Origin: a virus
Length of the DNA stretch: 53,689 bases
Direction: 5' to 3' (one strand)
Virus record (IMG/VR): IMGVR_UViG_3300029309_000059
Span: 1 to 53,689 of that record
The notes beneath the pieces are model-generated. The model ran no database searches. It was not told where the DNA came from and saw only the letters and a list, made by a program, of their open reading frames with translations. Shown here piece by piece: positions 798 through 47,351 of the stretch. Each line of letters starts with the position of its first letter. The stretch's first letter is position 1. The translations under genes and the position numbers were made by a program.

Positions 798-1146
798 GAT
801 CAAAGCTAAGTGTCGCGTTTTAGAAAAATTACTATGTAATAAAAATGATAGATATGGTAATGCGTCACTAGAACCTATCAATGTATTTTTCTCTGGCAAT
901 TCTGTATCCAGCATCAAAGCACGCATTGATGACAAACTAAAACGAATACAAAACTCAGGCAAACTTGACGATACTGAAGACACTTTATTAGACTTAACAG
1001 GTTATCTAATCCTCCTTATGATCGCAAAAGACAATGAAAGTCACGATATTCAAAAACGTATTCGAGAAGACTACACCACATCACATCCCACTACATCAAG
1101 CGTTACAAAGGATACAGACTGGGAAGTCGAGTACACTGGTATCTGA
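781..1146 (+). CDS. DUF1599/Nmad1-like all-helical protein
   Basis: A 121-residue protein. Residues about 12-85 carry a pattern typical of the DUF1599 (nucleotide modification associated domain 1) family: a KNDRYGNAS-like segment, then IKARIDDKLKRI, then DTEDTLLDLTGYLILL. The acidic helices resemble MazG-type nucleotide pyrophosphohydrolases, so a role in nucleotide metabolism or modification is plausible but not shown. The last ~37 residues are encoded in sequence shared, in another frame, with the first 113 bp of the primase-helicase gene, an unusually long overlap. The start overlaps the preceding gene by 17 bp. Confidence 0.6.
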   Translation: MSTKTKIKAKCRVLEKLLCNKNDRYGNASLEPINVFFSGNSVSSIKARIDDKLKRIQNSGKLDDTEDTLLDLTGYLILLMIAKDNESHDIQKRIREDYTTSHPTTSSVTKDTDWEVEYTGI

Positions 1147-2830
1147 CATACGTAGCGGAGATAAGGACAAAAAGACCGATCTACCTGTAGTGTGTTGGAG
1201 TGGGGAGTTTTCATCTAGATATGATGACTCTTTATTTGAGCACTCTGGATTTATTGTTTTAGACTTTGACTACGTAGATGTAGAGCCAACAAAAAGATCG
1301 TTGGCTACAGACGACTTTATCCATTCTTGTTGGACTAGTCCAAGTGGCACAGGCGTAAAGGCTCTAGTTCAAATAACAAACCCTGAGAGACACAGGGATC
1401 ACTTTCGAGCTTTAGTAAAGTACTTTGAAAGAACTCATGGCCTAGAGCTTGATGAGTCTGGCATCAATGAGTCGCGTGCTTGTTTTGAGTCTTACGACCC
1501 TGACATCATCATCAAAGATGAATCCAAAAAGTTTGGTCATTTCACCACAGAGATGGCTGAAGCACAGGTGCCAACGAACGAGGCTTACGATCATACAGAT
1601 TACATGAAGCTCAACCTTGGCTGCCGTATGATTCGACAGGCAAAGGATGGTGAGAAGTGGGTGACTTTACGCAAAGCTGCCATGCTATGTGGTGGCTATA
1701 TCTCGGCTGGCAAGATGGAAGAGGAGGAAGTGATAAGGATTTTGTTCAGGGAGATATGCAAGCGTAATGTAGACAGCGAGGATCACGCTAAGAAGCTTAT
1801 AATAGATGCCATAGAGAAGGGCAAAGAATTACCTATTAAGGAAATTATTGACGAGGAGAAGTCGGCCAAGAGGGAGATGTTATTAAATGATGGAGATATG
1901 TCATTTGTATCATCCGATGATGAAGACTTCAGGTGGATTGACGACTACTCACAGGGCCTTATTGAGATTGGCCTCACCACTGGTGATCTAAAGCTTGATG
2001 ACTTCTTTAGGTACAAGAAAGAGTTTGTCATCATCAATGGACACTCTAATGTGGGAAAGACAACGACGGCATTATATTTTATAGTCAATGCTGCGATTCG
2101 TCACGATTGGAAGTGGGTCATATACTCCTCAGAGAATAGAACCGCATCCATCAAGATGACACTAATGCAGTTTGCTGTAGATAGGAGGGTGGGGGACATG
2201 ACTTACAGCGAACGTAAAAGAGCTTACAAGTGGGTTCAGGAGCATTTTGTAGTTATCAGTAACAAACACATATACAGCTATAGCGATCTGATTCTTTTTA
2301 TTGAAAAGATTATGCTGCAGCAATCCGTAGATGCTGTGTTTATAGACCCATACAACAGTCTTAAATTAGATATGAGGGGGTCTGGTATAGGAGTCCACGA
2401 TTATCACTATGAAGCTGCCTCTGAGTTCTTGACGTTTAGCAAGGCAAACAACGTAGCGGTATGGTTAAATATGCATGCGGTGACAGAGGCACAGCGTAGA
2501 AAAGGTGACGACGGATTACCTGTAGCTCCATATGCGGAGGATACAGAAGGTGGTGGAAAGTTCGTAAATAGATCCGATTGCTTCCTTACACTTCATCGAA
2601 AGGTTCAAGCAATGGACCCTATCATACGGAAAATCAGTGAGTTACATGTAAGGAAAGTTAGAGAGGTAGAAACGGGTGGAGCACCGACTCCGCTAGAGGA
2701 TCCGTATAGATTACAGATAAATCTTTCCCACACAGGATTTCAAACCATGACAGGACAAAAGGCTCTATTTGAGTCAATTGACTTGCCTCACTTAGATGAG
2801 GTCAGATTTGAGTTTTCCACAAAATCTTGA
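1034..2830 (+). CDS. Primase-helicase fusion (VirE_N/BT4734-like plus RecA-type ATPase)
   Basis: A 598-residue replication protein. Residues 1-170 match the VirE N-terminal/BT4734-like domain of Bacteroidetes elements: an opening MKVTIFKNV, a SGEFSSRYDDS segment, the acidic strand HSGFIVLDFDYVD and TSPSGTGVKALV. This is a primase-polymerase-related domain. A helical middle precedes a DnaB/AAA_25-like ATPase with Walker A GHSNVGKT at about 336-343 and Walker B VFIDPYNS near 435. It probably primes and unwinds DNA at the phage fork. The start is supported by the conserved opening of the domain even though it lies 113 bp inside the upstream gene. The protein contains no separate zinc-finger primase. 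Confidence 0.85.
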   Translation: MKVTIFKNVFEKTTPHHIPLHQALQRIQTGKSSTLVSDIRSGDKDKKTDLPVVCWSGEFSSRYDDSLFEHSGFIVLDFDYVDVEPTKRSLATDDFIHSCWTSPSGTGVKALVQITNPERHRDHFRALVKYFERTHGLELDESGINESRACFESYDPDIIIKDESKKFGHFTTEMAEAQVPTNEAYDHTDYMKLNLGCRMIRQAKDGEKWVTLRKAAMLCGGYISAGKMEEEEVIRILFREICKRNVDSEDHAKKLIIDAIEKGKELPIKEIIDEEKSAKREMLLNDGDMSFVSSDDEDFRWIDDYSQGLIEIGLTTGDLKLDDFFRYKKEFVIINGHSNVGKTTTALYFIVNAAIRHDWKWVIYSSENRTASIKMTLMQFAVDRRVGDMTYSERKRAYKWVQEHFVVISNKHIYSYSDLILFIEKIMLQQSVDAVFIDPYNSLKLDMRGSGIGVHDYHYEAASEFLTFSKANNVAVWLNMHAVTEAQRRKGDDGLPVAPYAEDTEGGGKFVNRSDCFLTLHRKVQAMDPIIRKISELHVRKVREVETGGAPTPLEDPYRLQINLSHTGFQTMTGQKALFESIDLPHLDEVRFEFSTKS

Positions 2831-4539: not shown

Positions 4540-4769
4540 TGAAGAATACGAAACATCATCAGATAGTCAAGGCTGTTGTTTCCAGGGATTTTAAGTTCAT
4601 CCACATTGACGCTGGCATGGGTGACAACGGTTTGCAGCGAATAGTAACTGAAACTAGCGAGGAAGAAGTGATTCACTGTTATCTATACCCTATCATAGAT
4701 AAGATATGTAGAGAGGAGTTTAGAGATCTAGAAGATATCGCCCTTACAATAAAGGTTACTTGGGTCTAG
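4536..4769 (+). CDS. Hypothetical protein, last gene of the left + block
   Basis: A 77-residue protein starting within an ATGA overlap with the dockerin-like gene, so co-translation is likely. It is a mixed alpha/beta protein with no recognised motif. It is the last + strand gene before the long - strand arm. Its final 4 bp overlap the end of the convergent thioredoxin-like gene, leaving no room for a separate terminator. Confidence 0.6.
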   Translation: MMKNTKHHQIVKAVVSRDFKFIHIDAGMGDNGLQRIVTETSEEEVIHCYLYPIIDKICREEFRDLEDIALTIKVTWV

Positions 4770-5131
4770 AAGTCGTTAAGCATGATGTCGTCAACGGCCT
4801 CTTGAACTTCTTTAAGAGTGGCTTCCATAGTCATCATGATGTTTGCCTGGAATCTTTCTGCTTCTTCCCCTTCATTGAAAACAACAATGGTGGGTACCAC
4901 GACAATCTTGTGCTTCTTCTGAAGGTCTGGATTTGAAGCTATATCTATACGAGCTGTCTCACAATCGTCAAGCTTTTCAATCCAAGGCACACTGTTCTGT
5001 GAGTTAAAACTTGCGTTGAACTCAACTACACAGATGCCTGATCCGCATACGTCTTTATCTTCTGCAGGCGTCGCAAAGACTGCCGCCAGTAATAATGCAA
5101 AAGATACACATAGGGTTGATATTAATTTCAT
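4766..5131 (-). CDS. Exported thioredoxin-fold protein without CXXC
   Basis: A 121-residue protein with a signal peptide (residues 1 to about 20, MKLISTLCVSFALLLAA). The mature region reads as a thioredoxin fold: strand CVVEFNASF, a short helix, strand ARIDIAS, KHKIVVVPT with the expected cis-proline (Pro80), and VVFNEGEEAERFQ. The usual CXXC that should follow VVEFNA is replaced by SFNSQN, so a normal redox role is unlikely. Cys29, Cys34 and Cys57 remain. It lies at the 3' end of the exported-protein cassette, 3 bp from its upstream neighbour. It may be a periplasmic chaperone-like or binding protein. Confidence 0.6.
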   Translation of the reverse strand: MKLISTLCVSFALLLAAVFATPAEDKDVCGSGICVVEFNASFNSQNSVPWIEKLDDCETARIDIASNPDLQKKHKIVVVPTIVVFNEGEEAERFQANIMMTMEATLKEVQEAVDDIMLNDF

Positions 5132-5134
5132 GTG

Positions 5135-5419
5135 TCATTTTAGTTGATCTATTTTCTCTTCAATGCGCTTAATATCTTGCTTGATTTCAGTGACATCTTC
5201 TTGAGTAGTCATAATTGTTTGACGCACAAGCTGGTCTTTCATATCAAACTCCATGCGCGTGATCTCTGGCTCAGAAGGAAGCGGTAGCTCTTTTGCCTCT
5301 GCTATGTCAGCCTGCAAAGCAAACCACATCCCCACGATTGTTGCTATTCCCGCTGCCACCATACCAAGTGTCTTCAGGTCTAGTGTTACTTTAGTGTCCT
5401 CTCCAATTTGTTTTGCCAT
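5135..5419 (-). CDS. Single-pass membrane protein with coiled coil
   Basis: A 94-residue protein. The start at 5419 (MAKQIGEDTK) forms a TGATG overlap with the stop of the barrel gene; an upstream start would extend back into that gene. It has one transmembrane segment (about residues 17-36, LGMVAAGIATIVGMWFAL), then a proline-containing linker and a long charged coiled coil to the C-terminus (DVTEIKQDIKRIEEKIDQLK). The topology resembles small phage lysis or inner-membrane spanin-like proteins, but there is no lipobox partner beside it. The function is unknown. Confidence 0.6.
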   Translation of the reverse strand: MAKQIGEDTKVTLDLKTLGMVAAGIATIVGMWFALQADIAEAKELPLPSEPEITRMEFDMKDQLVRQTIMTTQEDVTEIKQDIKRIEEKIDQLK

Positions 5420-6465
5420 CACAATAGTATATAATTGAGTCCTACAGAGAAGTCGTGCCACTCTCTGTTCCAGTATCTGTTGTATTTACCTTCGGCAAAT
5501 ACGCCGAGGCTCTTTGTGAGCTTGGTTCCAAAAACAAGCCCAAATCCCAGGTCAACCCATTGACTGCTGTTAACGAAGTTGTGATAGGAATACTCGTCAC
5601 CTGTCTCAAGGTGGTAGGGCATTACGTTGCCCCATGAGTGCAACCAAAAATCTTTTTCGTAGTGATAGAAGTCAAAGCCCAGCACGGCAGAATAAAGCCA
5701 TTGGTTGTCTAGCTGCGCCCTCTTGTCAGAAACATATTCATCAAGCACCTGCGGGATGACCACCTGTTCCCATACCGCTTGATCGTTTGCAATCATGTTG
5801 CCGTCTGGAGAAAAGAACTCACCTGTGTTTACGTCAACGCTATATCCTTGCTGTATAGCTAAGGCGGTGTAGTGTATCTGATTGTTGTCTAGAAGCCATT
5901 GTTGCAGCGGATCGTACCCGTAGGGTTCAGATATTCTTTGCACCACTCCCACATTGAGAGAAAGCTTCTTACCAATCTTCACTCTCGCTCTTTCTGACGC
6001 TTCAAAATATCTGACATCAGCAAAACCATCTTGTAAGTATTCGGCCTTGACTATCCATGTATCTGCCACATATCTAGCAAAGTAGTCTTGATCAAGAAAG
6101 TTCTTCCCTTGTTGTCTTCTCCAGTCAGCTTCGGCCAAGAACTCAAATCCGTCGTATTTTCCTACTGTTGCTGCGTCTCCGTATGTCTTCTCTGTTCCGT
6201 CGTAAAAGATATTAGCTCTGTTCTCGTACCCAAACCTTGCAATCTTTCTCACGCCAAGTGTTAGGGAGTAATCAAAGGGAGTCTCTACAATCTCTGTTGT
6301 AAGCGGTCCTGTAGATACAGAGAATACGTCCTGATCTGACACGGAGTTACCTCCGTTTACGGATGCGTAGAACGTAGCTCTTCTTAACACATTTTTGTAA
6401 AAGTCGCTTTGTCCAAGGGCAAACAAGGGCAAAAGCATAAAGGCTATGGCTACAAGTCTCTTCAT
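5419..6465 (-). CDS. Predicted outer-membrane beta-barrel protein
   Basis: A 348-residue protein with a Sec signal peptide (residues 1-19, ending FALGQ). After it come many alternating strands rich in Tyr, Trp and Phe separated by polar loops, for example FEFLAEADWRRQ, WLYSAVLGFDFYHY and VDLGFGLVFG. The last strand, HDFSVGLNYILL, is barrel-like, though it ends in Leu rather than the usual aromatic residue. This is typical of Bacteroidetes OMP_b-brl proteins. It overlaps the T9SS cargo gene upstream by 4 bp and the coiled-coil gene downstream by 1 bp. A role in altering the host surface or receptor is inferred. Confidence 0.65.
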   Translation of the reverse strand: MKRLVAIAFMLLPLFALGQSDFYKNVLRRATFYASVNGGNSVSDQDVFSVSTGPLTTEIVETPFDYSLTLGVRKIARFGYENRANIFYDGTEKTYGDAATVGKYDGFEFLAEADWRRQQGKNFLDQDYFARYVADTWIVKAEYLQDGFADVRYFEASERARVKIGKKLSLNVGVVQRISEPYGYDPLQQWLLDNNQIHYTALAIQQGYSVDVNTGEFFSPDGNMIANDQAVWEQVVIPQVLDEYVSDKRAQLDNQWLYSAVLGFDFYHYEKDFWLHSWGNVMPYHLETGDEYSYHNFVNSSQWVDLGFGLVFGTKLTKSLGVFAEGKYNRYWNREWHDFSVGLNYILL

Positions 6466-8528
6466 TGTCTTACGATTGTTTCTCTCTTGATTCTACCCTT
6501 ATAATTAGCCATGATTACATACGGCCCTGGTGATGGCAGCTCAACTTTGTTTCCCGTGGTTGTTTCAACAACCGCACCCCTTGCATCAAATAAAGTAATT
6601 ACTGTACCCACAGGAGCTTGTATGTTTACGATTCCAGACGTAGGGTTAGGGAAGAAATGAAGCAATGATCTCACTGCCATATCTACCGCAGTGACTCCGT
6701 CTCCACAGTAGTCGTACATCTCTTCGCATACCGCATCCCAAGCTGTTTCACAGCAGTAAGGGTCAACCTCGATCACCCACGAGTAACAGTAGTCATTCGC
6801 CCAGTACGGTTCTCCTGGGCCAGTGATGCAGCCCGCATCATACAAGCAGGCATCTTCGTTAGGAGTGTTTGCTAACTCATTGTAATTGAATGCGTTAGGG
6901 TCCATGCAGTCAAGTATAACTTCAATGCAATCTCCTGTATCTACGTTTGCTTCTGGATCGTAGTTAAGAGCCTCAGGGGACATGCACCCAAACACAGCAA
7001 GCGTCTCACAGCTGCCATCGTCATAGTCAGCTTCATATCCCTGATTGTAGTACTCTACGTAGCCAGCTTGAGTGCATCCAGCATTGTAGTAGCAGCTACC
7101 ATCCTCTGTATTCGCTTCAGCATCGTAGTTCTGTGCGGTGTCGTCAGTGCATCCATACATAAATGGAATACAACTGGTTCCGCAGTAAGGCATGAAGCTG
7201 TATACATTCCACTCAGGATTCTTAAACGGCTGAAGCGCACCCTGACCGTTGTTAAAGAACGGGTTAAGACCCTCAGCCATGAGCGTATCGCCCAGTTCGT
7301 TTGTAACGAGAATGGAGTTGTGAAGTGTCTGAAACTCAGTCTCTTGAGGTGGTTGCTGCGGCCCTCCAACCTCGAAATAATACACATCTACCTTTTCGTC
7401 TGAATCAAGGACTAGGTCCCATGACTGAGAAAACTCTCCAGGACCCATGGTAAAGATCCATTGCAGCTCCCCCTGCTTTACGCCTATATGCGAGTTCCCC
7501 CATCCATCTCCAGCTGCGTCTCCGATTCTTATGGTTGTGAGGCACGGGCTGTTTAGGTCTGAGATCGTAGCGGTTGAGTCGTAATTAAAAGACTCTGGGT
7601 CCATACACCCCCATGTGTGTAGAGTGAGGCAATCCCCCGCATCTGTAGCCTCTGGGTTGTAGTCAACGTAATCGTCGTCCATGCATCCCACTATCACGCT
7701 ATCGGGAGCGCAGGGTTCCACAAAGACAGCCCCAGAGTAATGCACGTTTCCATCGTTGTCTGAATATGCTAAGTCTTCTAGTTCCCAAACAATCTCCTCG
7801 TCACACGCAGTAATCACAACTCCTCCATCCTGGCCCCCACTTGCAGACCCATTGAGTCCGTCTCCGTAAGTGTCTGTGAGTATCAACTCAAAACCCAGAG
7901 CAACACAAAAATCATAAGTATATGTTGCAAGCTGATCGCCAAAATTGAATCCTCCTGGAAGAACTTGCTCGTAGAACTGACCGACAGCCAAGTCAACAAG
8001 CGTAAACCCAGTTTCATTTGGCCAGTTGTCTAAGGTCAACTCCATCGAGACAAAAGCCTGACCCTCTGGACATTCACTCACATTGCAACTACCGTCATCT
8101 ACAGTCGCCCATGGATTGTAGTTGTTTGATGAATCATCTGTACACCCTGGAATCGGAAGAGCACAAGGCTCGGCAATGAAAGGAACTGTTATTTGTGATG
8201 CATCGAAATCAAATACAGCTACATCAAGTCCACAATCGTTGTTTAGAGCAAACCATCCCTCTCCAAACTGACAGCATATACCGTCTCCAAAAGCATCGTT
8301 AACCACAAGATTGTACTCTCCTGATGGCAGCAGTATCAGCTGTTCCGTATAAGAAGAATCAGGGTATGGTCCTCCAGACGTAAAGGCATTGTCAGAGCCG
8401 ATTGGGTATATCTCCCATGTGCTCTCACCCCCGTAGTTGTCAGTCTGAAACTCAAAATTTACCCAGCTAGGCTGAGACAAACAAACAAATGGAATGCAAA
8501 ATAGTATTGAGAAAAAAGATTTCATCAT
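6462..8528 (-). CDS. T9SS-exported, Cys-rich repeat protein with type A sorting domain
   Basis: A 688-residue protein with a signal peptide (residues 1-19). The body holds about seven copies of a Cys/Asp/Asn repeat of the form GC(T/M)D..A.NY(D/N)..A..DDGSC, common in secreted proteins of marine Bacteroidetes. Between them are CUB- or jelly-roll-like segments with GDG/YGDG turns. Residues about 620-688 are a type IX secretion C-terminal sorting domain: FFPNPTSGIVNI, then LFDARGAVV, then GPYVIMANYKGRI ending ETIVRQ. The protein should cross the outer membrane by the host T9SS and be anchored or released at the cell surface. ATGA overlap with the upstream gene; 4-bp overlap with the barrel gene. 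Confidence 0.85.
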   Translation of the reverse strand: MMKSFFSILFCIPFVCLSQPSWVNFEFQTDNYGGESTWEIYPIGSDNAFTSGGPYPDSSYTEQLILLPSGEYNLVVNDAFGDGICCQFGEGWFALNNDCGLDVAVFDFDASQITVPFIAEPCALPIPGCTDDSSNNYNPWATVDDGSCNVSECPEGQAFVSMELTLDNWPNETGFTLVDLAVGQFYEQVLPGGFNFGDQLATYTYDFCVALGFELILTDTYGDGLNGSASGGQDGGVVITACDEEIVWELEDLAYSDNDGNVHYSGAVFVEPCAPDSVIVGCMDDDYVDYNPEATDAGDCLTLHTWGCMDPESFNYDSTATISDLNSPCLTTIRIGDAAGDGWGNSHIGVKQGELQWIFTMGPGEFSQSWDLVLDSDEKVDVYYFEVGGPQQPPQETEFQTLHNSILVTNELGDTLMAEGLNPFFNNGQGALQPFKNPEWNVYSFMPYCGTSCIPFMYGCTDDTAQNYDAEANTEDGSCYYNAGCTQAGYVEYYNQGYEADYDDGSCETLAVFGCMSPEALNYDPEANVDTGDCIEVILDCMDPNAFNYNELANTPNEDACLYDAGCITGPGEPYWANDYCYSWVIEVDPYCCETAWDAVCEEMYDYCGDGVTAVDMAVRSLLHFFPNPTSGIVNIQAPVGTVITLFDARGAVVETTTGNKVELPSPGPYVIMANYKGRIKRETIVRQ

Positions 8529-9265
8529 TTCTTGAGAACCTTGATTTTACCGCCGTATTTATTCAACTTAAAACTAGGTTGAGTTGCTTGCTCCATAAAA
8601 GATTCAACGGGCTCCTGAGTTCTAGGATCGAATGTAGCGTCCTTCAAAGGCGTACTAGAAAGAGAACCACCACGAGCTTCATTAAAAACTTGATCAATAT
8701 CCTTTACTAGTTGTTGATACGATTTATTGTCTAAGTATTCAGTAAATTCTATATCGCGAAGTATATCATCTAATGATGCTTGAAGCTTGTCAAAATCTTG
8801 AATCTCCCCCCGAAGTAAATTTTCCAAATTTATTTGAAGCTCCCCAACAGCCAGACTCTCATCCTTTGCACCTTCTCTTAAAGCTCTATCTGCTATGTTT
8901 TGGAGACGATCATTAAGTTGTTTTTGTTGTAGATTCATAAGAGCTCTTTTGTCTGCTGATCTCTCAGCAAACCCCTCCAACATCTCTCTTCTCGCCATAT
9001 CAATCGCTGGAGCAACAGAACGAGCCCCTCTGCCAGCCAGAGCCCTAACCCCTCTAGCTGCCAGTGAAGCCAACTCCCCTGCCCCCATAAAATCAAAGAT
9101 GTACGGGCGATCTACACTGATAGCCCCAGTAACCCTTGGATCAGGTATGATATTCTGACGCATAGCCTCATCCATCATGACAGCCCTGTCAGCAGCTAAT
9201 TGTTCTCTAGCCATTTTCTCCAAAACAGGGTCTTTACCTCCATTCTGATATTTCTTAATCTTCAC
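8525..9265 (-). CDS. Helical late protein with KKYQNGG and GGKIKV end tags
   Basis: A 246-residue, strongly helical, charged protein of unknown function. It begins MKIKKYQNGGK and ends NKYGGKIKVLKK. Very similar end tags occur on the 434-residue protein at 47379-48683 and, in part, on several small basic late proteins. A short Ala/Gly/Arg-rich stretch (about residues 65-85) is the only low-complexity part. It is encoded between the holin and the T9SS cargo gene with ATGA-type overlaps at both ends. It may be an internal virion protein; that is inferred from the tags and the late location. Confidence 0.5.
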   Translation of the reverse strand: MKIKKYQNGGKDPVLEKMAREQLAADRAVMMDEAMRQNIIPDPRVTGAISVDRPYIFDFMGAGELASLAARGVRALAGRGARSVAPAIDMARREMLEGFAERSADKRALMNLQQKQLNDRLQNIADRALREGAKDESLAVGELQINLENLLRGEIQDFDKLQASLDDILRDIEFTEYLDNKSYQQLVKDIDQVFNEARGGSLSSTPLKDATFDPRTQEPVESFMEQATQPSFKLNKYGGKIKVLKK

Positions 9266-9699
9266 TTTTTTGATTTTTCTATCGTTCTACCTGCGAAGTA
9301 TGCACCAAATGCAGTTAGCATAAGGATCTGTAACAAATCTACGTAAGAATCTTTGACGTTAAATGGCCAGTTGTCCATGCTATCCGCAAGCATCGTGAGC
9401 ATAAACATGCTCATAAGAGCAATCAATGTAACAGGTCTGATAAGCTTGGCTAACTTTACATCGCTACCCATATCTGCCTGCCATCTAGAAGTAACGTTGT
9501 TTTGAAACTGAATCTCAGCATCCACAGCAGCGTTACCCTCATCAGTATCTACGTCAGGGTCTTTTTCAATAAGATTTTTTACAATACCTAGCCCTCCGCT
9601 GTCAGGCAATAGATCCCCTACTACATTAAGTACGTTAGGTGCTTTTGACTTCAACCATTTACCAAGACCTGTGTCTTTAATCTTTTTCTTGTCTGCCAT
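9262..9699 (-). CDS. Holin-like protein (GTA_holin_3TM type)
   Basis: A 145-residue protein with a soluble N-terminal half, then the segment RWQADMGSDVKLAKLIRPV. Two hydrophobic helices follow: about residues 85-107 (TLIALMSMFMLTML) and 117-137 (YVDLLQILMLTAFGAYFAGR), with a charged tail IEKSKK. The order, RW..DM.SD...IRP...TM..SYVDLL...GAYFGGR.IEK, matches the GTA/phage holin family that opens the inner membrane at lysis. It overlaps the giant late protein upstream by 1 bp and the tagged helical protein downstream by 4 bp. The endolysin-like M15 peptidase is far away, near 46.5 kb. Confidence 0.7.
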   Translation of the reverse strand: MADKKKIKDTGLGKWLKSKAPNVLNVVGDLLPDSGGLGIVKNLIEKDPDVDTDEGNAAVDAEIQFQNNVTSRWQADMGSDVKLAKLIRPVTLIALMSMFMLTMLADSMDNWPFNVKDSYVDLLQILMLTAFGAYFAGRTIEKSKK

Positions 9700-12600
9700 T
9701 ATCTTATGAATTGCTTTTTACCAATATAGATATTTCTAGTGTTTTCAACGCCAAGACCAGCCTCTTTAGATATACTGAATATCTTCTTTTTGTGAACGCC
9801 CAGTCTTTCCGCTGCATGCATAAGCTCTCTTATCTCAGCATCAACTTCTGCTAACTTTTCTGTTGCCTTTTCAGAATCGTCATATCTGAGCCTTGTAGCA
9901 TCTCTCCTTCTCTCCCTAAAGTCCCTGAGCTTGTATCCAAGCTGTTCTTCTATATCAATCCTGTAGGGCTTTAGTCCCGTGAGTTGACCAATAAGCTCTC
10001 CCCCTACGTTATCTGCCTGGACTACCTTTCTTATAGACTTTATCGTTCCTGGCTCTATAGTGCCTTGGTACATATAGTTTAAGACATCAAAAGCCTGCTG
10101 AGCAGCATCGTCTTCTGGGTTCCATATTGGGGCTCCACTTCTTTTTTTGTTGGCAGTCATGTCCAAGATTGCCGCAGTTGCTATATCCACCCCAATGAAA
10201 GGTTCTATAACCTGATAGGCACCCTTTGCCACTGCTTGACCAGCTGATTCACCTTCAGCTACAGAATTGATTATTCTATCAAAATTACCGAATGGGTCTG
10301 AGGCTGATAAGTCAACAAAAGTGATCTTCCCTTGACCAGCATCAAGAACGCATATGGCTGATTTTTTTGTCCATGGAGGGCTGAAAAGCCTTATGTCATC
10401 AAGCCTTTGTGATTCATCCTCGTCGTCGAACATCAAGCCATACAACCCCTGAAGACCCACTCCAATACCTTTTGCAAAATGGTACATTATTGCTTTCTTG
10501 ACTGCTTGATACGACAGCACCCCAATAAGTCTTTTTGCGCCAATCTTTCTTTGTTCAGGGTTTTCTGACACAACTTCTCTAACGGCGTACTCAAATGTAT
10601 TGTAGGCCACCCTGTAAGACTCGGCTTGAAACGCTACAAAGTTTCCAACCGCAGGAACCCTTCGGATAAATTTAATCGCATCAGGAACTCGGCTATATGT
10701 AGGAAAAGTATTCTTTACTATCTCAGCAACCGTGGATTCTACCTGAGACATCTCCTGTTCGTTTAACGATTCCGCAGATTTGTTAAACAAAATTTTGGCT
10801 TGTCTCTTTAGCTCCATCTCGTAGGCTACGATCTTAAAAAAGTCATCCTCGGCCTGATAAAGGTTTTCCGCACCCCTTCCAACAGCTCGTGCAGCTCTTA
10901 ATGTAAAATTCTTGATGCCCGTGGCCTCGTTATTGAGTCTGCTCTCTATAGCTTTGGACCAGTTGGCATCCTTGAACATATCCCTAATCTCACCTATTGA
11001 TGCACTTTGCTTTACAATACCCAACTCAATGTATTTATTGAGCTTGTTGTTTAATTCCTCGTTACCACTTTTTCTCAAATCGTTGTAGACAACTTGAAGA
11101 GATTTGTACATCTCAGAACCAGTTTCAAAAGGACTAAACACAAACCCATTGACATACATGAATCCCATGTTACCCAAAAGGTTTTTAGCGTGAGTACCAA
11201 GGGACAAGATGGTCTTAGAGTATTTTGTCGCACCTATAAGCCTGAAGTACGCCTGCAGGAAAGTGTTGTTTGTTTCCTTTTCAACTGCTGCTAGTTCTGC
11301 TGCAAGCTCTTTCGTGGTGTACAACCCATCAAGATCACTGTTGGTGCCTTGTATTTGAGTATCGAAGACTCCACTCCTTCCGTCAAAGAAGAACTTACCC
11401 TTACCAATCTCTATTATTTTATTTAGATACTTTTGAGCTTCTAGCGCAGCAGTCATTCTCATGACAGATTTAGCATAATTTTGCACGGGGTTGCTGTACT
11501 CACCCATGAGTGCTCTAATCTCTTTGGGGATATCCTGTCTTTGCTTAAGTATTCTAGTGTCTACCTTCTTTGTTGCCACTGATTTCGTAGTCTCTTCTGC
11601 AAAAGCTTTGGCTTGTTCTGGATCAATGTACTTGTTTACCTCAGCGTCAATCAAGGACTCATAATATTCGTCACGAGAAAGATTGTTGGGGTTTTGATTT
11701 GTTTGCCACTCTGCGTCAGCCCTATCATTAAGCGATTTACCATCGGTATCTCTATCTCTATTCCTTATAAGTCTTTTTGCGTCCTCTATGATCTTCGCGT
11801 TTTCGTCACGCGCAAGTGATTTTCTCCAAGCCTTTGGGTTGTCAAAAACTTTGTACGATCTGGTCAGGTAAGTACCGAGATTGCCCAAAAGCTTATCAGC
11901 TTCAGAAGACTTGTTAAGAATATCAGACCTCTCTTGCTTTTTGCTCTCCAGCTCTTTTTCAAGTCTTTCCCTTACTGATGGTGTATCCTTGATTCTGCGC
12001 TTGCCAAGAGCAGTTTCAAGCTCCTGTATTTCATCTGACAAGGTTTTCAGTCTAGCTCTATTTGTCTCTGCAGAATCTATATCTACAACGCCAGCGTCAA
12101 TCAACTGCACGGTGAGGGCATCAACTTGATTTCTCATTGATGTAACTATCTCTTGCATCTCTGGAGAAAGGTTGTTGATCCCTTCTCCCCCTCTCATCGC
12201 GCTGTCTAGGTTCTGATAAAAAGCATCATTGTCAAAATCAGCACTTTTGTTTTCTTGTTTTAGCTGCTGATTGAACTTGGCAATTGTTTGCTCAATGACA
12301 CTAGAGCCCTTAGCCACATTTGCTTGGCTCTGTTCTTTCTCTGCAAAAAGAGACTTTGGGAGAAACCTCCTAGCCAAAAGAACAGACCTTCTAATTCTTT
12401 CTGCCGCATTTGCTAGACCTTTACCTCTAACAAAAAGATCTTGATCCTCAAGGGACTCTTCAGTCACTGGTGTGGGGGCGGGGGCCTCTGCTTCAGTTTC
12501 TTCCTGAGTTTGTGCTTCAACATCAGAAGCGTTGGGATCGTCTTGCTCTTCAGGGTCAACTGCGACGTCAGGAACCATATCCGTCAGTCGATCTGTCTCC

Positions 12601-14774
12601 TCCTGCAATGCTGCCTCTGCTCTATCAGCATCTTCTTGAGCTCTCTGCTCAGCAGAGACAGGTTGATAATTATCTATTATATCTTCAATACGAAGCTGAA
12701 GCTCGCTTAACTGGTTAGCTTCTTTTTTGACAAGCCTAGAATCTATTGCGTTAGCTATTTTTCTTTTTAGGTCTGCTTCTTGACTTAACAGAGCATACAA
12801 CTGCTTTTGAGTTGACAAATCGGCATCCTCAGGCACACTGTTTATGATATCCGCAGTTTTATTTATGTCCTCAACTTTAGCGTCATACTGTTCCTTTGTT
12901 ATTTTACCCTCAGCCAAATCTACCTGAGCCTTTGCAATAGCCAAATCTCTGACCATAGGGGGTCTGAAAGAATTAAGACCCTGCATAAGCTCATCAGAGA
13001 ACGTAGACCTAGGATCCATTGCTCGAACAGCAGTAGGTGCGCCAATGAAAAATCCGCCAATAGCTTCGGCTGCAGATGATTTAGCAATTAACTTATAATA
13101 TTCTTTTGAAAAAAATTCAGGAGTTTTAAACTCTCCTGAGTTCTTAGAGGCGTTCCAAAGTCTTTTTGCATTGACTTCAGCAACAGCCTGAAGAGCACCT
13201 GTTTCTGCCTCGGCGAGAGAGCCAGAAGCAAGAACCAAAGTGCCTCTTGCTAGAGCAGACTGTACATCTTGTTGTACAAACTCAGTAAAGCTTTTGTTTA
13301 CAGCCCTTCTGTTCAATGCCCTGAAAGCAAGCTTTGATAATAAGCCGTCTCTGTTGATAACATTTCTAAAACCCAAATCCTCTAAAACGGCAATCACCAA
13401 GGCCAAAGGTGCTTTGTATAAATACTTCTCCTCTTCAGGTACATCCTGCCACTCTTCCCCCTGCATCTCTCTATCTGCAGCCTCCATCGCCTGGATCATT
13501 AACGCCCCTCGTGTAACAAACTTTCCACCTGGCAAGGCAAACGCTGGAATAGATCTGGCGGCACCAAACACCCCTGTTGCCACAATACTCTCTTCTTGCA
13601 ATCTCTGAATGTACTGTTCAGTCACATTTGGCGTTTGAAAAACAGAAGATACTCTTTTGCCCATTTCGGTAATATCAGCCTTTATATCTCTCTGTTGCTC
13701 AGTTAGCCTGGCTGTGGCATCTTCGTCTTCACCAATTTTGGCGATACCAAAGCCTATATCTGTTAGGATTTTAAGGCCACCACCAATAAGATCTTCATTT
13801 ATTCCGCTAATAAACGAGTTGTAAGCCCCCCCAAGAAAGTTTCCCTCATCGGCCTTTTGCTCTGCATACCTTTTAGCTTTCTTCTGTAATGAAGCACCTT
13901 CTAATGAAAGCTGACTAGCTCGTTTATTAAATGCAATAACATCGTTGTTATAGTCCTCCTGTAAGGCTTGAAACTTTATGCTTTCCTCTTCATTCATCTC
14001 AATAAGAGATGCCATCATATCTATTTCTTCTTTTTTAGATATCAAAGAGTCTTTCTGAACATTAAATTGATTTAATGATTCAATAAACTCATCATTTTCT
14101 TGTCTTAGAGCTTCGTCGTTCCTGTATACAGGGGTCGATGTTTCAAGAGTTTTTGCGATGTTGCTGATTAGTTCCTTGTCTTGAACCATGTTCTCAGACA
14201 TCCAAGCACGAATCTCTGATGCTGTTTGAATCTTTTGTTCTTCAGACTGCATACCCCTTGTGGGTCTAGCCTCTCTTGACCGAACACTTCCAGGAGCTCC
14301 GATCTCAGAAAACTGAGCCATAGAAACAGGTCTAGGGTCAAATGAGAATCGAGCTCGCTTCCCATTTGGCGCCTTTACAGACACCACGTCCTGCCCAGGC
14401 AAAGCCAACGTAGCCTCGCTGAACTCAAATCCAAAGTCATTGAAATCAGCGTTTAGCTGTTGCACAGCAGGCTCTTCTGTCAGGCCAACTGTCTGAGCGT
14501 CAACCCTTTTGAGTCTTTCTCGAAACGGCTTGTCCAACGAAAACAGCTCCGAAGAACCATCTTCCAATACGGAATCCGTATCTTTTTTTTTTACCCCCAT
14601 CAACACGCTGAAATCATCAGCACTTTTCTGATATCCAGCGTTAGAAAACATAGTATAGGCGTCACCGAGAGCCTGCTCATCTGTATTTATCAATTCGACA
14701 AACTCCTCAAATGATTTCGTATACCCCCCTTGCTGAAACAGCTTGTAAGCGTCTTGCTGTGCCTGTTCGTTCAT
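9699..14774 (-). CDS. Giant internal virion-type protein (1691 aa)
   Basis: A 1691-residue protein. The N-terminus has two copies of a helical repeat (AYKLFQQGGYTKSFEEF and AYTMFSNAGYQKSADDF, residues about 5-55). It is followed by long coiled-coil-prone, Glu/Gln/Lys-rich regions. The C-terminal third has short hydrophobic patches (KYSKTILSLGTHAKNLLGNMG, VGNFVAFQAESYRVAY). Such layouts are seen in large proteins ejected with phage DNA and in polyvalent-type proteins. No enzyme motif is evident. It sits between the tail genes and the holin, the usual place for internal ejection proteins. Stop and start overlap with the holin. Confidence 0.6.
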   Translation of the reverse strand: MNEQAQQDAYKLFQQGGYTKSFEEFVELINTDEQALGDAYTMFSNAGYQKSADDFSVLMGVKKKDTDSVLEDGSSELFSLDKPFRERLKRVDAQTVGLTEEPAVQQLNADFNDFGFEFSEATLALPGQDVVSVKAPNGKRARFSFDPRPVSMAQFSEIGAPGSVRSREARPTRGMQSEEQKIQTASEIRAWMSENMVQDKELISNIAKTLETSTPVYRNDEALRQENDEFIESLNQFNVQKDSLISKKEEIDMMASLIEMNEEESIKFQALQEDYNNDVIAFNKRASQLSLEGASLQKKAKRYAEQKADEGNFLGGAYNSFISGINEDLIGGGLKILTDIGFGIAKIGEDEDATARLTEQQRDIKADITEMGKRVSSVFQTPNVTEQYIQRLQEESIVATGVFGAARSIPAFALPGGKFVTRGALMIQAMEAADREMQGEEWQDVPEEEKYLYKAPLALVIAVLEDLGFRNVINRDGLLSKLAFRALNRRAVNKSFTEFVQQDVQSALARGTLVLASGSLAEAETGALQAVAEVNAKRLWNASKNSGEFKTPEFFSKEYYKLIAKSSAAEAIGGFFIGAPTAVRAMDPRSTFSDELMQGLNSFRPPMVRDLAIAKAQVDLAEGKITKEQYDAKVEDINKTADIINSVPEDADLSTQKQLYALLSQEADLKRKIANAIDSRLVKKEANQLSELQLRIEDIIDNYQPVSAEQRAQEDADRAEAALQEETDRLTDMVPDVAVDPEEQDDPNASDVEAQTQEETEAEAPAPTPVTEESLEDQDLFVRGKGLANAAERIRRSVLLARRFLPKSLFAEKEQSQANVAKGSSVIEQTIAKFNQQLKQENKSADFDNDAFYQNLDSAMRGGEGINNLSPEMQEIVTSMRNQVDALTVQLIDAGVVDIDSAETNRARLKTLSDEIQELETALGKRRIKDTPSVRERLEKELESKKQERSDILNKSSEADKLLGNLGTYLTRSYKVFDNPKAWRKSLARDENAKIIEDAKRLIRNRDRDTDGKSLNDRADAEWQTNQNPNNLSRDEYYESLIDAEVNKYIDPEQAKAFAEETTKSVATKKVDTRILKQRQDIPKEIRALMGEYSNPVQNYAKSVMRMTAALEAQKYLNKIIEIGKGKFFFDGRSGVFDTQIQGTNSDLDGLYTTKELAAELAAVEKETNNTFLQAYFRLIGATKYSKTILSLGTHAKNLLGNMGFMYVNGFVFSPFETGSEMYKSLQVVYNDLRKSGNEELNNKLNKYIELGIVKQSASIGEIRDMFKDANWSKAIESRLNNEATGIKNFTLRAARAVGRGAENLYQAEDDFFKIVAYEMELKRQAKILFNKSAESLNEQEMSQVESTVAEIVKNTFPTYSRVPDAIKFIRRVPAVGNFVAFQAESYRVAYNTFEYAVREVVSENPEQRKIGAKRLIGVLSYQAVKKAIMYHFAKGIGVGLQGLYGLMFDDEDESQRLDDIRLFSPPWTKKSAICVLDAGQGKITFVDLSASDPFGNFDRIINSVAEGESAGQAVAKGAYQVIEPFIGVDIATAAILDMTANKKRSGAPIWNPEDDAAQQAFDVLNYMYQGTIEPGTIKSIRKVVQADNVGGELIGQLTGLKPYRIDIEEQLGYKLRDFRERRRDATRLRYDDSEKATEKLAEVDAEIRELMHAAERLGVHKKKIFSISKEAGLGVENTRNIYIGKKQFIR

Positions 14775-39083: not shown

Positions 39084-41201
39084 TCACATCTTATAACGCC
39101 TAAAAAACTTCTTGTCTATAAAGTTAGACTCTACCTTTTTAGCCCTAACCTTCTGAGCAGCAAGCAGTGCCAAACCTGAACTTATCGTTAAATCAAACTT
39201 AGTTCTGTCTGTTATTTTAAATCCTATCCAGTCCTCTAGCGTCCTGTTGAAATACATGTTGCCCATATTGCCTGTTTCGTAATGTATACCAACGTGATCA
39301 TGTATGTAAGCCTCTATCGCTTGAGCATGAGATTGTATGACATCTTGAGAGTTTGACGGTATGCCTTTTGTCTTTGTCTTTATAGTAGAGTTTGTAGACA
39401 TGAGGTGCTTGGGTCTGTCCATTAGATAACCATCATAACCTCTTGATTCAAAGTATCTTGCAATACCGTACTTATTGTTTTCAATTAAGATGGGATACCC
39501 GTAAAATACAGCAGCCATCAAAACATCCTCGTAAAATATTTTAGCCAAAGGAGGTCTTGAAGCATACTCGACTACAAACATATTCGATGGATGCTCCATG
39601 TGAAACTTATTGTACATATGCAAGGCACCCTTTGAGCCCCGACCATCGACGGTGGCATCTAAATCATAAGAGTCCACCCCACCAACCCCTATATCAGGAT
39701 TAGGTGCAATACGTTTGCCTTTATCAAAGAGTTTCTTGTTTCTAAATTCTTCGGGAGGCATCCATGAAACATGGAATCTACCGTTTGGATCAGGCTTAAA
39801 AAAAACTTCAGTATCCTTCTCCCCATTCTTCCAGTGAAAGTTACCTACTACAACGGGGTTGGGGAACAGGTCTTCATTGTATTGCGTCTGCTCATAGATC
39901 TTACCTATATTAAATAAGCTACCATCTATACTATCTCGAAAAGCTTCATCCTCTGTAAACGGAAACTGTCTAGTAATCTCATTTAATTCAGAAGCATCGT
40001 GTTTGAAACTATTCCTTTCATTTTTCAGGTATGTCTTTGATCCTTGATTAATGCTATCACCATCAATACCAAGAACAGGATTATTAGGATCTTCAGTGAT
40101 TGCAAATCCATGATTATCAAAAAACCCCTCCAAAGAGTCATAAGCAGGTATAAATAAACGATACAGACCGCTTCTAGTTCTTCCGTTTGCGTTTCTATCT
40201 GTAGGATCAGAATCGGACCAAAGGTCTTTGTATTCTTTACCACCTTTGTCCATAGGGTTAACAGTGCTGCCAACCATAGCCTTGCCTACAATCTTTCTAC
40301 CAACTATAAGACATGTTCTCTGTATCCTCCAAGCGTCTCTTATATCAGTAGGTTTCTCCCACTTTCCAGCCTCATCAAGATACAATATGTGCAGCTTCTC
40401 TCCGTCGTATGCGTTGTTGGTGGTATTCTTCCAGTTAATTACCGTATTAAGAGCCTCTCCCGTCTGCGTAGTCTTATTCTTCTTCGTGATTCTCTTACTC
40501 GGCTCGCGAAAAGCCAACTCCATGCGTGGGTTAGTGGTACCATCTTGAATAGGTTTAAAGAAGAAGGGGTAGTGCCTAAACATATAGACGACCTTCTTCA
40601 TGAATATATTTTCTTGGGCATCCTTTCCAGTCTTTGACTGGATGCCAAGGAGTTTATCCTTAACCTGGGTAGCCTCATCTAGTAGCACAGAGGAGCAGAT
40701 ATTTGTATATCCGCTACGTCTACACTTCGTGTATAGTTGACCAATGCATCTTGGGTCAGCTTCACACGCTGCCAAATGTATGAAAATATTTCTTTGAAAC
40801 TCTAAAAAATCTGGATACCCGATATCCATTCGGGTCCACTGAAGCATCATGTAGTGCCTGCCCGTAATATATGTAGGGACACCGTTATTATAAAACCAAA
40901 AACCTTCACGCCTACGGCGAAACTCTTCTTCGATATACGGAGAAAACTTTTGTCTAAACTCCCTTGGCATCTCCCCCCACTCATCCATAGACTTAATCCT
41001 AGACAACTCCTGTGGCATAGAAACCCTCTTCCACAGCTGCATGTCGTTTGGACTTCCATATCCATAAATTTTTTCTTTGGGAGGCTGAGCGGGAAGTATA
41101 ATGACCAGCCCACCAAGTTGAATACTTTCACCTTTCGTACCGTTGGTGCAAATTGAGATAGCAGGCTCATCATATTCTTTTATCTGTACAAGCGTAGACA
41201 T
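39084..41201 (-). CDS. Terminase large subunit (predicted)
   Basis: A 705-residue protein starting at the ATG at 41201 (MSTLVQIKEYDE), because further upstream the frame runs through the tRNA-Arg gene. Visible ATPase elements are a Walker A-like CRRSGYTN region (about 160-170) and Walker B LHILYLDEAGKW (about 270-278). The nuclease half has GVDSYDLDATVDG (about 508), IENNKYGIARYF and an acidic C-terminal segment, giving the RNase H-like Asp set. It packages DNA with the portal. The unusual P-loop lacks a canonical GKT, as in some crAss-like terminases. Confidence 0.8.
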   Translation of the reverse strand: MSTLVQIKEYDEPAISICTNGTKGESIQLGGLVIILPAQPPKEKIYGYGSPNDMQLWKRVSMPQELSRIKSMDEWGEMPREFRQKFSPYIEEEFRRRREGFWFYNNGVPTYITGRHYMMLQWTRMDIGYPDFLEFQRNIFIHLAACEADPRCIGQLYTKCRRSGYTNICSSVLLDEATQVKDKLLGIQSKTGKDAQENIFMKKVVYMFRHYPFFFKPIQDGTTNPRMELAFREPSKRITKKNKTTQTGEALNTVINWKNTTNNAYDGEKLHILYLDEAGKWEKPTDIRDAWRIQRTCLIVGRKIVGKAMVGSTVNPMDKGGKEYKDLWSDSDPTDRNANGRTRSGLYRLFIPAYDSLEGFFDNHGFAITEDPNNPVLGIDGDSINQGSKTYLKNERNSFKHDASELNEITRQFPFTEDEAFRDSIDGSLFNIGKIYEQTQYNEDLFPNPVVVGNFHWKNGEKDTEVFFKPDPNGRFHVSWMPPEEFRNKKLFDKGKRIAPNPDIGVGGVDSYDLDATVDGRGSKGALHMYNKFHMEHPSNMFVVEYASRPPLAKIFYEDVLMAAVFYGYPILIENNKYGIARYFESRGYDGYLMDRPKHLMSTNSTIKTKTKGIPSNSQDVIQSHAQAIEAYIHDHVGIHYETGNMGNMYFNRTLEDWIGFKITDRTKFDLTISSGLALLAAQKVRAKKVESNFIDKKFFRRYKM

Positions 41202-41213
41202 AATTAAATTTAG

Positions 41214-41287
41214 TGCATCTGCAGGGACTCGAACCCCAAACCTGCACATTAGAAGTGTGCTGCTCTATCCAGTTGAGCTACAGATGC
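41214..41287 (-). tRNA. tRNA-Arg(UCU)
   Basis: A 74-nt canonical cloverleaf. The acceptor is GCATCTG/CAGATGC (7 bp), the D-arm GCTC...GAGC with the AACTGGATA loop, and the anticodon stem GCACA/TGTGC with loop CTTCTAA, giving anticodon UCU. The variable loop is AGGTT, the T-arm TGGGG-TTCGAGT-CCCTG has two wobble pairs, and the discriminator is A. CCA is not encoded. It reads AGA and AGG and lies just upstream of the terminase gene. Confidence 0.95.
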
Positions 41288-43081: not shown

Positions 43082-43322
43082 AACTCATAAAAATAGGTGT
43101 TTTCTCTCCAACATAAGATCCAACAATATTAAAATCTGCATGCTCTACAGCATCTTCGTAGTCCATACCCTCCTCTACAAGTATCTCTATTATTCTATCT
43201 ATATCGTACACAGCAACTACGTTCGCACCGTATGTGCACCCAACAAGTGCGTCATCAAATCCATCAGCAGTAAGGCATTCTTCTTCTGCGAGCACCTCCA
43301 TCAAGTCTTCTTTGTCAATCAT
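43071..43322 (-). CDS. Conserved phage protein, unknown function
   Basis: An 83-residue acidic protein. The order GFDDALVGCTYG, AVYDIDRIIEILVEEGM, YEDAVEHADFNIVGSYVGEKTPIF is a recurring small phage protein in marine and soil phages. The function is unknown. It overlaps the GroES-like gene by 4 bp at its start. Confidence 0.6.
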   Translation of the reverse strand: MIDKEDLMEVLAEEECLTADGFDDALVGCTYGANVVAVYDIDRIIEILVEEGMDYEDAVEHADFNIVGSYVGEKTPIFMSFVG

Positions 43323-43906
43323 TTTTCTACGTATAAAAGATCTTCGGTTCTAGTTCTATAATATTCCTTGCCATCTATCTTAATACGATAGTCTCGATTT
43401 TGCTTGAAACCAACAACATCCCCAGCTTTCAATCCAAGATCTTCAACCCAAGGAGCCGTAAAAGCGATACGACCCTTTGTTGGTAAGCTCTTTTTAAGTT
43501 CGATAACTTCGATAACATCAGATTTTGTTTTTAATTCATCTTGAACTACAGGCTCAAGAAGAGCCCAACCAGCAAGAGGATGTATGTGTCCACTTTTTGA
43601 ACTCTTATATCCAATGGCTTGATTGTTTATAGTGTGGTTAGGATCGTATCTAACCAGATAATGGTTTTCATGTCCAGTTAATGCTTGGCCCTCATTAAGC
43701 ACAACGAGATGATGAAAATATAAGGTGTCTCCAGACTCTACTCCTGTGTTGTGTTTAAGAGGTGCAGATACTACTGGCCCCTCAGTTACTCTATGTTCAA
43801 ACTCATTAAAGCTAGTATTTACATAAAGCTCAAGACCACCTTCGGTAGTCATAGTGTCGTTAAGCTGTTTTTCTAGCTCTACAACAAACAGATCAAGTGT
43901 TTTCAT
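43319..43906 (-). CDS. GroES-like co-chaperonin, two-barrel form
   Basis: A 195-residue protein. The C-terminal ~60 residues (GRIAFTAPWVEDLGLKAGDVVGFKQN, then YRIKIDGKEYYRTRTEDLLYVE) match the end of GroES: a GDxVxF strand, then the K(V/I)DGxEYxxxRxxDIL(A/Y)V strand. The N-terminal half (GPVVSAPLKHNTGVESGDTLYF) has a similar G.V.A......V..GD.VYF pattern, so the protein may contain two GroES-like barrels or one split by an insert. Like T4 gp31, it may act with host GroEL to fold capsid subunits. This is inferred from family resemblance. Confidence 0.65.
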   Translation of the reverse strand: MKTLDLFVVELEKQLNDTMTTEGGLELYVNTSFNEFEHRVTEGPVVSAPLKHNTGVESGDTLYFHHLVVLNEGQALTGHENHYLVRYDPNHTINNQAIGYKSSKSGHIHPLAGWALLEPVVQDELKTKSDVIEVIELKKSLPTKGRIAFTAPWVEDLGLKAGDVVGFKQNRDYRIKIDGKEYYRTRTEDLLYVEK

Positions 43907-46432: not shown

Positions 46433-46915
46433 TCAAAGTGATTTACCGAATATTACTTCGTAGTAAGTCTTGCCCTTACTATCTCTGCAAGCTTTGAGAC
46501 ACCTTTTACGATTAACGCCATCGTGAACGTAAGAAACGTGCACCCAATCAGGATTGTCCTCATCACCAAACTCCCAAACCATCTGATCGAACTCAAGATT
46601 CTCGCGAATGTATTGGAATATCTCAGCGTTTGTACAACCTCCGAAAACGTCTGCGTCAAGGTCGAGTGCTCTTCCTTCCATATGCTGACTACGGCGCGAG
46701 CCCCCGATAGCACGGTTGAGCTCAGGTCCACGATAGCCTGACGACACGTATATAGGACACCCGAAATGATCCCTAACAGGTTGAAATACATGTCTTGCAA
46801 TTGCTTTAAGGTTTTCTTCAATCCATTCATCATCAGGTGTATTATCTATACCTAGACGTTTAGCTGTTGTGCTTTTTGTTGCCTCGGCAAGTGATAGATT
46901 TTTTGACAGCTTCAT
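46433..46915 (-). CDS. M15-type peptidase, probable endolysin
   Basis: A 160-residue protein starting at the ATG at 46915 (MKLSKNLSLAEAT). It carries the peptidase M15_3 pattern: VSSGYRGPELNRAIGG, then SQHMEGRALDLD (His78, Asp85) and PDWVHVSY (His126), which bind zinc. Such enzymes cleave peptides in peptidoglycan and serve as phage endolysins or virion peptidoglycan hydrolases. It has no signal peptide, fitting a holin-dependent endolysin. It sits with surface proteins, not next to the holin, so a virion role is also possible. Confidence 0.8.
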   Translation of the reverse strand: MKLSKNLSLAEATKSTTAKRLGIDNTPDDEWIEENLKAIARHVFQPVRDHFGCPIYVSSGYRGPELNRAIGGSRRSQHMEGRALDLDADVFGGCTNAEIFQYIRENLEFDQMVWEFGDEDNPDWVHVSYVHDGVNRKRCLKACRDSKGKTYYEVIFGKSL

Positions 46916-46925
46916 ATGATATATA

Positions 46926-47351
46926 TTAAGCAGCTGCAAATACTTCTACATCACATGTTGCTGTATCAGCCTGCACTGCTATAGAATCTATGTTTGCCAA
47001 ACTAACAGACGCCCCGCCTGCTGCATTTGCATCCATAGATTGATTATTTAAGATAAAGCTGTCACCAGCTTCAAGCTTTACGAAATACTCTTCGTTGTTA
47101 CCTCTAATTCTTAAAGTAACGAAGTTTCCACTGTCAAGGTTAGTCAACCTTAGGTAATTTAAAGTAGCATCTTTTATTGTGCCAGCCGCTACAGCAGAGT
47201 CGAAAAGCAACACGGTCTGTTCTGCAGAGTGAAGGCAGCTCACAATCCTGTGGTCAATCTGAGTTACTGATTCTGTGTGAGTGTTTGTAGATCCACGAGA
47301 AGCACCGTTAAGTGTTACTGCCTCTGTTATAGTTACCGTAAGTGTTGCCAT
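46926..47351 (-). CDS. Beta-rich virion protein, distant relative of the 33-34.6 kb family
   Basis: A 141-residue protein starting MATLTVTITEAVTLNGAS, with LNYLRLTNLDSGNFVTLRIRG, FVKLEAGDSFIL and the C-terminal strand CDVEVFAAA. Start, length and strand order match the four tandem paralogues around 33-34.6 kb, although identity is low. A TATATTTG box ends 4 nt before ATG. Confidence 0.55.
   Translation of the reverse strand: MATLTVTITEAVTLNGASRGSTNTHTESVTQIDHRIVSCLHSAEQTVLLFDSAVAAGTIKDATLNYLRLTNLDSGNFVTLRIRGNNEEYFVKLEAGDSFILNNQSMDANAAGGASVSLANIDSIAVQADTATCDVEVFAAA

Follow-up and report, generated by a model that had tools for sequence, protein, structure and literature searches.

A type A T9SS sorting domain on a late-gene protein of marine Bacteroidota viruses, encoded beside a phage outer-membrane barrel

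The late arm of a phage genome deposited as an IMG/VR virus record (53,689 bases, classed linear; the whole stretch is called the window here) encodes a protein of 688 amino acids that carries a genuine type A sorting domain of the type IX secretion system (T9SS), and the phage therefore most likely sends a protein of its own to the host surface, delivery being read from the domain. Judging from the sequence, export of this cargo by the host Sec and T9SS machineries is highly probable. The cargo gene is part of a cassette that also encodes an outer-membrane barrel, a coiled-coil protein with one transmembrane (TM) segment, and a Sec-exported thioredoxin-fold protein devoid of the CxxC motif; the domain layout of the cargo, its sorting domain, the cassette and the conservation of that cassette are all supported at the sequence level. 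A phage-encoded T9SS cargo as such is not new; what is new is that a conserved cargo, in which no enzyme domain is recognised, is paired with a phage outer-membrane barrel in a large marine lineage.

The cargo gene is a single long open reading frame of 688 codons on the minus strand (8528..6462), filling the segment reported in an earlier note on this DNA, which had its coordinates and length right and left the strand unstated. Its product comprises a signal peptide, three β-rich domains, seven GCxD repeats, a CC-x3-WD-x2-C segment and the C-terminal domain (CTD). First of all, the signal peptide, MMKSFFSILFCIPFVCLS (8472..8528, minus), precedes Gln19, the predicted first residue of the mature protein, in agreement with the Bacteroidetes Q-rule, whereby Gln after the signal peptide is usual for Bacteroidota (PMC5837995). 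This Sec signal peptide was read from sequence, and Gln was indeed found directly after the hydrophobic leader in 55 of 55 cargo relatives. Each β-rich domain contains one D-x-x-GDG motif, at residues 78, 219 and 337, respectively. The GC(T/M)D repeats, earlier counted as about seven, are exactly seven, and start at residues 128, 281, 307, 459, 484, 514 and 540; the cysteine segment, PYCCETAWDAVC, is located between the repeats and the CTD of about 69 residues, in which the motifs FPNP, LFDARG, GPYVI and ETIVRQ are recognizable. The AlphaFold model of the cargo was of modest overall confidence (pTM 0.29), with the CTD at a pLDDT of about 69-86. Foldseek searches with the whole cargo retrieved mostly generic multi-domain β-proteins with low TM-scores, and the three GDG domains were therefore given no function; no recognised enzyme or catalytic domain was found in the cargo. 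Among relatives, the main cargo ranged from 674 to 1117 amino acids in length and from 6 to 23 in GCxD repeat number, a variation that is expected for a stalk. The dN/dS values were 0.05-0.07 for the body of the cargo and 0.11-0.17 for the CTD, values that indicate purifying selection on both, less strict for the CTD. These figures could be read to mean that the CTD tracks the T9SS of the host; CTDs from two species proved incompatible in one study (PMC11285876).

The sorting domain itself occupies residues 620-688 (6465..6671, minus), and is marked by FPNP, the invariant G651, G668, Y670, and the basic/hydrophobic C-terminus ETIVRQ. The earlier note had pointed to the families TIGR04183 and PF18962, and this part of its proposal holds for the family rather than for the window copy, which scored below the curated cut-off of both profiles (E=0.0017 and 18.3 bits against a cut-off of 23 for TIGR04183; E=0.0028 and 18.3 bits against 27 for PF18962). 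The domain is indeed present in other viral genomes: in a scan of viral contigs, 81 stretches were found to encode cargo relatives, the best 80 of which were kept (42-89% identity) and 40 aligned. TIGR04183 was matched by 39 of the 40 aligned relatives at E<=0.01 (best 8.8e-15), and PF18962 by 38 of 40 at the same threshold (best 3.5e-14), while the curated cut-off was exceeded in 29 of 32 cargo-bearing viral records. On the basis of these family-wide matches, which go far beyond chance, we call the sorting domain real, though the window copy alone is sub-threshold. When searched against the PDB, the CTD profile retrieved solved T9SS CTDs, namely 8glk (4.7e-9), 8glj (1.9e-6) and RgpB 5hfs (3.6e-5). 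The Ig-like fold anticipated in the note was also seen in the predicted structure, in which strands span residues 624-687, as expected for a seven-strand β-sandwich, and for which Foldseek found the RgpB CTD (7pq4) with a probability of 1.00, an rmsd of 2.9 over 79 columns and a TM-score of 0.65 on the target. The glycine at position 651 is invariant in all 40 relatives and is placed by profile alignment on the glycine of RgpB IFDMNGRRV, which is G699 of motif L-β3-β4 in the residue numbers of PMC11285876; replacement of G699 with Arg blocked RgpB secretion (PMC11285876). The C-terminal motif is present as well, in endings such as KKIIKS and ETIVRQ.

The genomic surroundings of the cargo are those of a phage. 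Its reading frame shares 4-base overlaps with both neighbours, 8525..9265 and 5419..6465. The former (minus) encodes a protein of 246 amino acids between the holin and the cargo, likewise with 4-base overlaps on both sides, and no relative of it was found in any other locus examined. Directly upstream of this block lies the holin gene (phrog_3427; 9262..9699, minus), which is found at the matching place in a related phage that is free of the cassette, and is preceded by the late gene of a virion structural protein (phrog_22602; 9699..14774, minus), beyond which are more virion proteins, the portal and the terminase. The large terminase (39084..41249, minus) places the phage near Elemovirus and the Cellulophaga podoviruses, its identity being 48% to the terminase of a Manatee Spring podovirus, 42% to those of Elemovirus phages infecting Flavobacterium, and 35-37% to those of Cellulophaga phages. 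This kinship makes a Bacteroidota host likely, and the presence of T9SS in that host is assumed from it. A scan for promoters and terminators performed no better than shuffles. It is to be noted that the window also encodes a GroES-like co-chaperonin (phrog_13932; 43319-43906, minus), for which annotations exist in its Cellulophaga and Elemovirus phage relatives too, and, at 1034-2830 (plus), a protein of the primase-helicase type, in which a BT4734-like N-terminal domain is combined with a DnaB-like helicase domain.

Downstream of the cargo, the partner genes follow in close order. The barrel gene (5419..6465, minus), which has a 4-base overlap with the cargo stop, encodes 348 amino acids, including a signal peptide that ends in ALG followed by Q, and its structure model (pTM 0.67) contains about 12 strands. 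The best PDB folds in Foldseek were NanC-/KdgM-like 12-strand porins, autotransporter barrels and Tsx, with low TM-scores (0.37 for the query), such that the match indicates an outer-membrane barrel and nothing finer. Against viral proteins, one clear relative was retrieved (A0A516LKJ4, E 3.5e-21). Identification of the barrel as PorV (FadL-like) or PorP/SprF was considered and rejected, as no such family appeared in the Pfam matches of 45 members and there was no PDB sequence match; the top Foldseek list, too, gave generic barrel folds only, such as porins and autotransporter barrels. The next gene (5135..5461, minus), conserved after the barrel, encodes a small protein that combines a single N-terminal TM segment with a coiled coil and weakly matches phrog_1009/phrog_462. 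The last gene of the cassette, also conserved (4766..5131, minus), encodes a Sec-exported thioredoxin-fold protein of 121 amino acids that retains the cis-Pro (VVPTIVVF) and matches TIGR01068 weakly (1.9e-5, 24.7 bits against a cut-off of 96.8). The position of CGPC is taken by NSQN or similar in all relatives displayed, within a strongly conserved sequence, FNASFNSQN...VVPTIVVFNEGEE; the protein is thus probably a redox-dead thioredoxin. An active periplasmic disulfide enzyme serving the cysteine-rich cargo was rejected, since the thioredoxin fold of this neighbour lacks CxxC.

The association of cargo and barrel was then found to be nearly constant. Of the 166 barrel loci fetched, 161 also encoded a cargo with a CTD, which lay within 1 kb of the barrel in 154; most of the remainder were truncated where the contig or the fetched stretch stops. 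These 166 loci include overlapping pieces of single contigs and do not represent as many independent phages. The usual gene order was cargo-barrel-TM-Trx, with barrel-TM-Trx-cargo in about 11 loci, and two CTD cargoes occurred in 8 loci. A shorter second T9SS CTD protein (411-521 amino acids), with GCxD repeats and other N-terminal domains, was observed between cargo and barrel in L011, L012, L013, L014, L019 and L062 (approximately 8025-9638, plus). An alignment-based scan found the barrel encoded in at least 591 viral stretches. The count of 32 out of 32 records is circular, as most of them were picked by their cargo; the nine records reached through the barrel alone avoid this circularity, and the CTD was present in all nine. 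Both CTD and barrel were absent from six named relatives, namely MW202828, two Elemovirus, Cellulophaga phi38:1 and phi46:3, and Tenacibaculum Gundel_1, and the phage collection held a named relative of the cargo only as a single weak match in the repeats, with none for the barrel and none for the thioredoxin-fold protein. Viral contig G034, the related phage that has the matching site without the cassette, has a terminase that is 82% identical and a holin that is 78% identical, and yet is without cargo or barrel; its holin is followed by small TM/coiled-coil genes, and then by converging genes resembling those of ribonucleotide reductase (L350, 15568-18218, minus). Because it is missing from G034 and from the named relatives, the cassette is regarded as an accessory unit that closes the late arm and has been retained in a single section of the phage group.

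Similar modules are found in cellular proteins. Counterparts of the GDG domains and of the GCxD repeats, mostly 25-45% identical, were seen in large proteins secreted by Flavobacteriales, Crocinitomicaceae, Saprospiraceae and Aquimarina, and many of these proteins carry a T9SS CTD; the same cellular loci yielded no barrel relative. The phage may have acquired the cargo domains from host surface proteins. Cellular type A cargoes, such as RgpB and flavobacterial surface proteins, share the Sec signal peptide, the Ig-like CTD and the L-β3-β4 glycine with the window protein, which differs from them in being the product of a phage late operon and in having no catalytic domain that could be found. 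The closest precedent is the Bacteroidota 'Cryophage', in which Bellas et al. (2020) described three genes for T9SS type A cargo, proposing that the phage hijacks the secretion system of its host (PMC7468147). The earlier note was therefore mistaken in knowing of no described case, and it overlooked the adjoining barrel and the conserved cassette, while its recognition of a type A sorting domain on a phage late gene has been upheld by the profile, PDB and RgpB fold matches. The Cryophage genes lie in a variable island and encode an endoglucanase, GH39 and PA14, with superinfection exclusion or competition suggested as their role (PMC7468147). The two systems thus have in common a phage-encoded type A sorting domain, the proposed use of host secretion and perhaps superinfection exclusion, but the Cryophage genes are variable and mostly enzymes, whereas the window phage has a conserved, repeat-rich, adhesin-like protein and a phage barrel in a late cassette. 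Secreted proteins following the Q-rule in Porphyromonas gingivalis phages (PMC10367356) resemble the cargo in having Bacteroidota-type signal peptides on phage proteins, although neither T9SS nor CTD is mentioned in that paper. Beyond Cryophage, no phage-encoded T9SS cargo was found in the open-access literature, which was the scope of the search, subscription papers lying outside it.

For the working of the cassette, we infer late expression, transport, surface anchoring, joint action with the barrel, and receptor masking, as follows. The cargo would probably be made late in infection; host Sec would take it to the periplasm, where signal peptidase I would expose Gln19, and the host type IX system would recognise the type A CTD and move the remainder of the cargo across the outer membrane, to be surface-anchored or released. 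Together, the cargo, the barrel, the inner-membrane coiled-coil protein and the periplasmic thioredoxin-fold protein would remodel the envelope of the infected cell. The disulfide-rich stalk and the head of the cargo may cover or tie up surface receptors, which would exclude rival virions and keep progeny from rebinding the dying cell or debris. Receptor masking, or superinfection exclusion, is our leading guess for the role of the cargo, drawn from analogy, and is favoured by three lines of background. Phage resistance in Flavobacterium columnare arises repeatedly via T9SS/gliding mutations (PMC9233685), T9SS-exported adhesins may serve as phage receptors in flavobacteria (PMC13288928), and phage T5 offers a precedent in Llp, which resides in the envelope and blocks the phage receptor (PMC9586334). 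The likeness to T5 Llp / Cor lies in the proposed function alone, receptor block by a phage envelope protein, Llp being a small periplasmic lipoprotein and a protein type quite unlike the cargo. The late-operon position beside the holin counts in favour of the preferred explanation, but exclusion would be expected to act early, and the presence of the cargo gene among the late genes counts against that role. The entire chain, from Sec/T9SS export through envelope remodelling to receptor masking, is a serious possibility rather than a probability. It is possible, though rather doubtful, that cargo and barrel form a dedicated viral surface-display pair that occupies the T9SS route or the receptors, shutting out rivals and freeing progeny.

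Other roles were also weighed. The displayed or shed cargo could be a dispersal adhesin by which cells, particles or progeny virions are attached to new hosts, as its stalk of 6-23 repeats within 674-1117 amino acids and the similar domains of large proteins secreted by Flavobacteriales and Saprospiraceae would suggest; we consider this unlikely, however, because the cargo body is strongly conserved instead of diversified, and no known binding domain was identified in the cargo. It is improbable that the cassette is a lysis or egress module, weakening or opening the Bacteroidota outer membrane late and replacing a classical spanin pair. The nearby holin, the inner-membrane spanin topology (one TM and coiled coil) of the 5135-5461 protein, the occurrence of TM-plus-coiled-coil genes at the same place in a related phage, and the fact that searches of the window recognised no spanin are all consistent with such a module, but the likely endolysin, an M15 peptidase, is located elsewhere (46433-46939), lysis has no need for a large disulfide-rich secreted protein, and the related phage without barrel and cargo retains its holin and coiled-coil genes. 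The porin-like and Tsx folds of the barrel and its nearly obligatory gene pairing with the cargo might recall a binding-protein/porin pair, with a surface binding protein and an outer-membrane channel feeding nutrients or signals to the infected cell; given the low TM-scores, which identify an outer-membrane barrel only, the late gene position, and a search that found no transport or binding motif, uptake is distinctly improbable. Finally, the resemblance of the cargo modules to host surface proteins notwithstanding, a useless residual host gene or misassembled host sequence can be dismissed, since the same gene order in many independent viral contigs and the 4-base overlaps with phage genes exclude contamination and misassembly, which the earlier note had named as grounds for refutation, and dN/dS is well below 1.

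If export and receptor masking by the cassette are true, T9SS use by phages would be fixed in an abundant lineage of marine phages, not a rare cargo swap, and would be tied to a phage-made outer-membrane partner whose barrel is spread over those 591 or more viral stretches. Phage resistance in flavobacteria maps repeatedly to T9SS and gliding genes, so that a phage feeding a protein of its own into the T9SS route would tie secretion, receptor choice and superinfection together in a single cassette that is open to testing. Overall, in widespread viruses of marine Bacteroidota, a host T9SS tag on a surface-type protein encoded beside a viral barrel suggests that infected cells may be coated by means of the host's own export.
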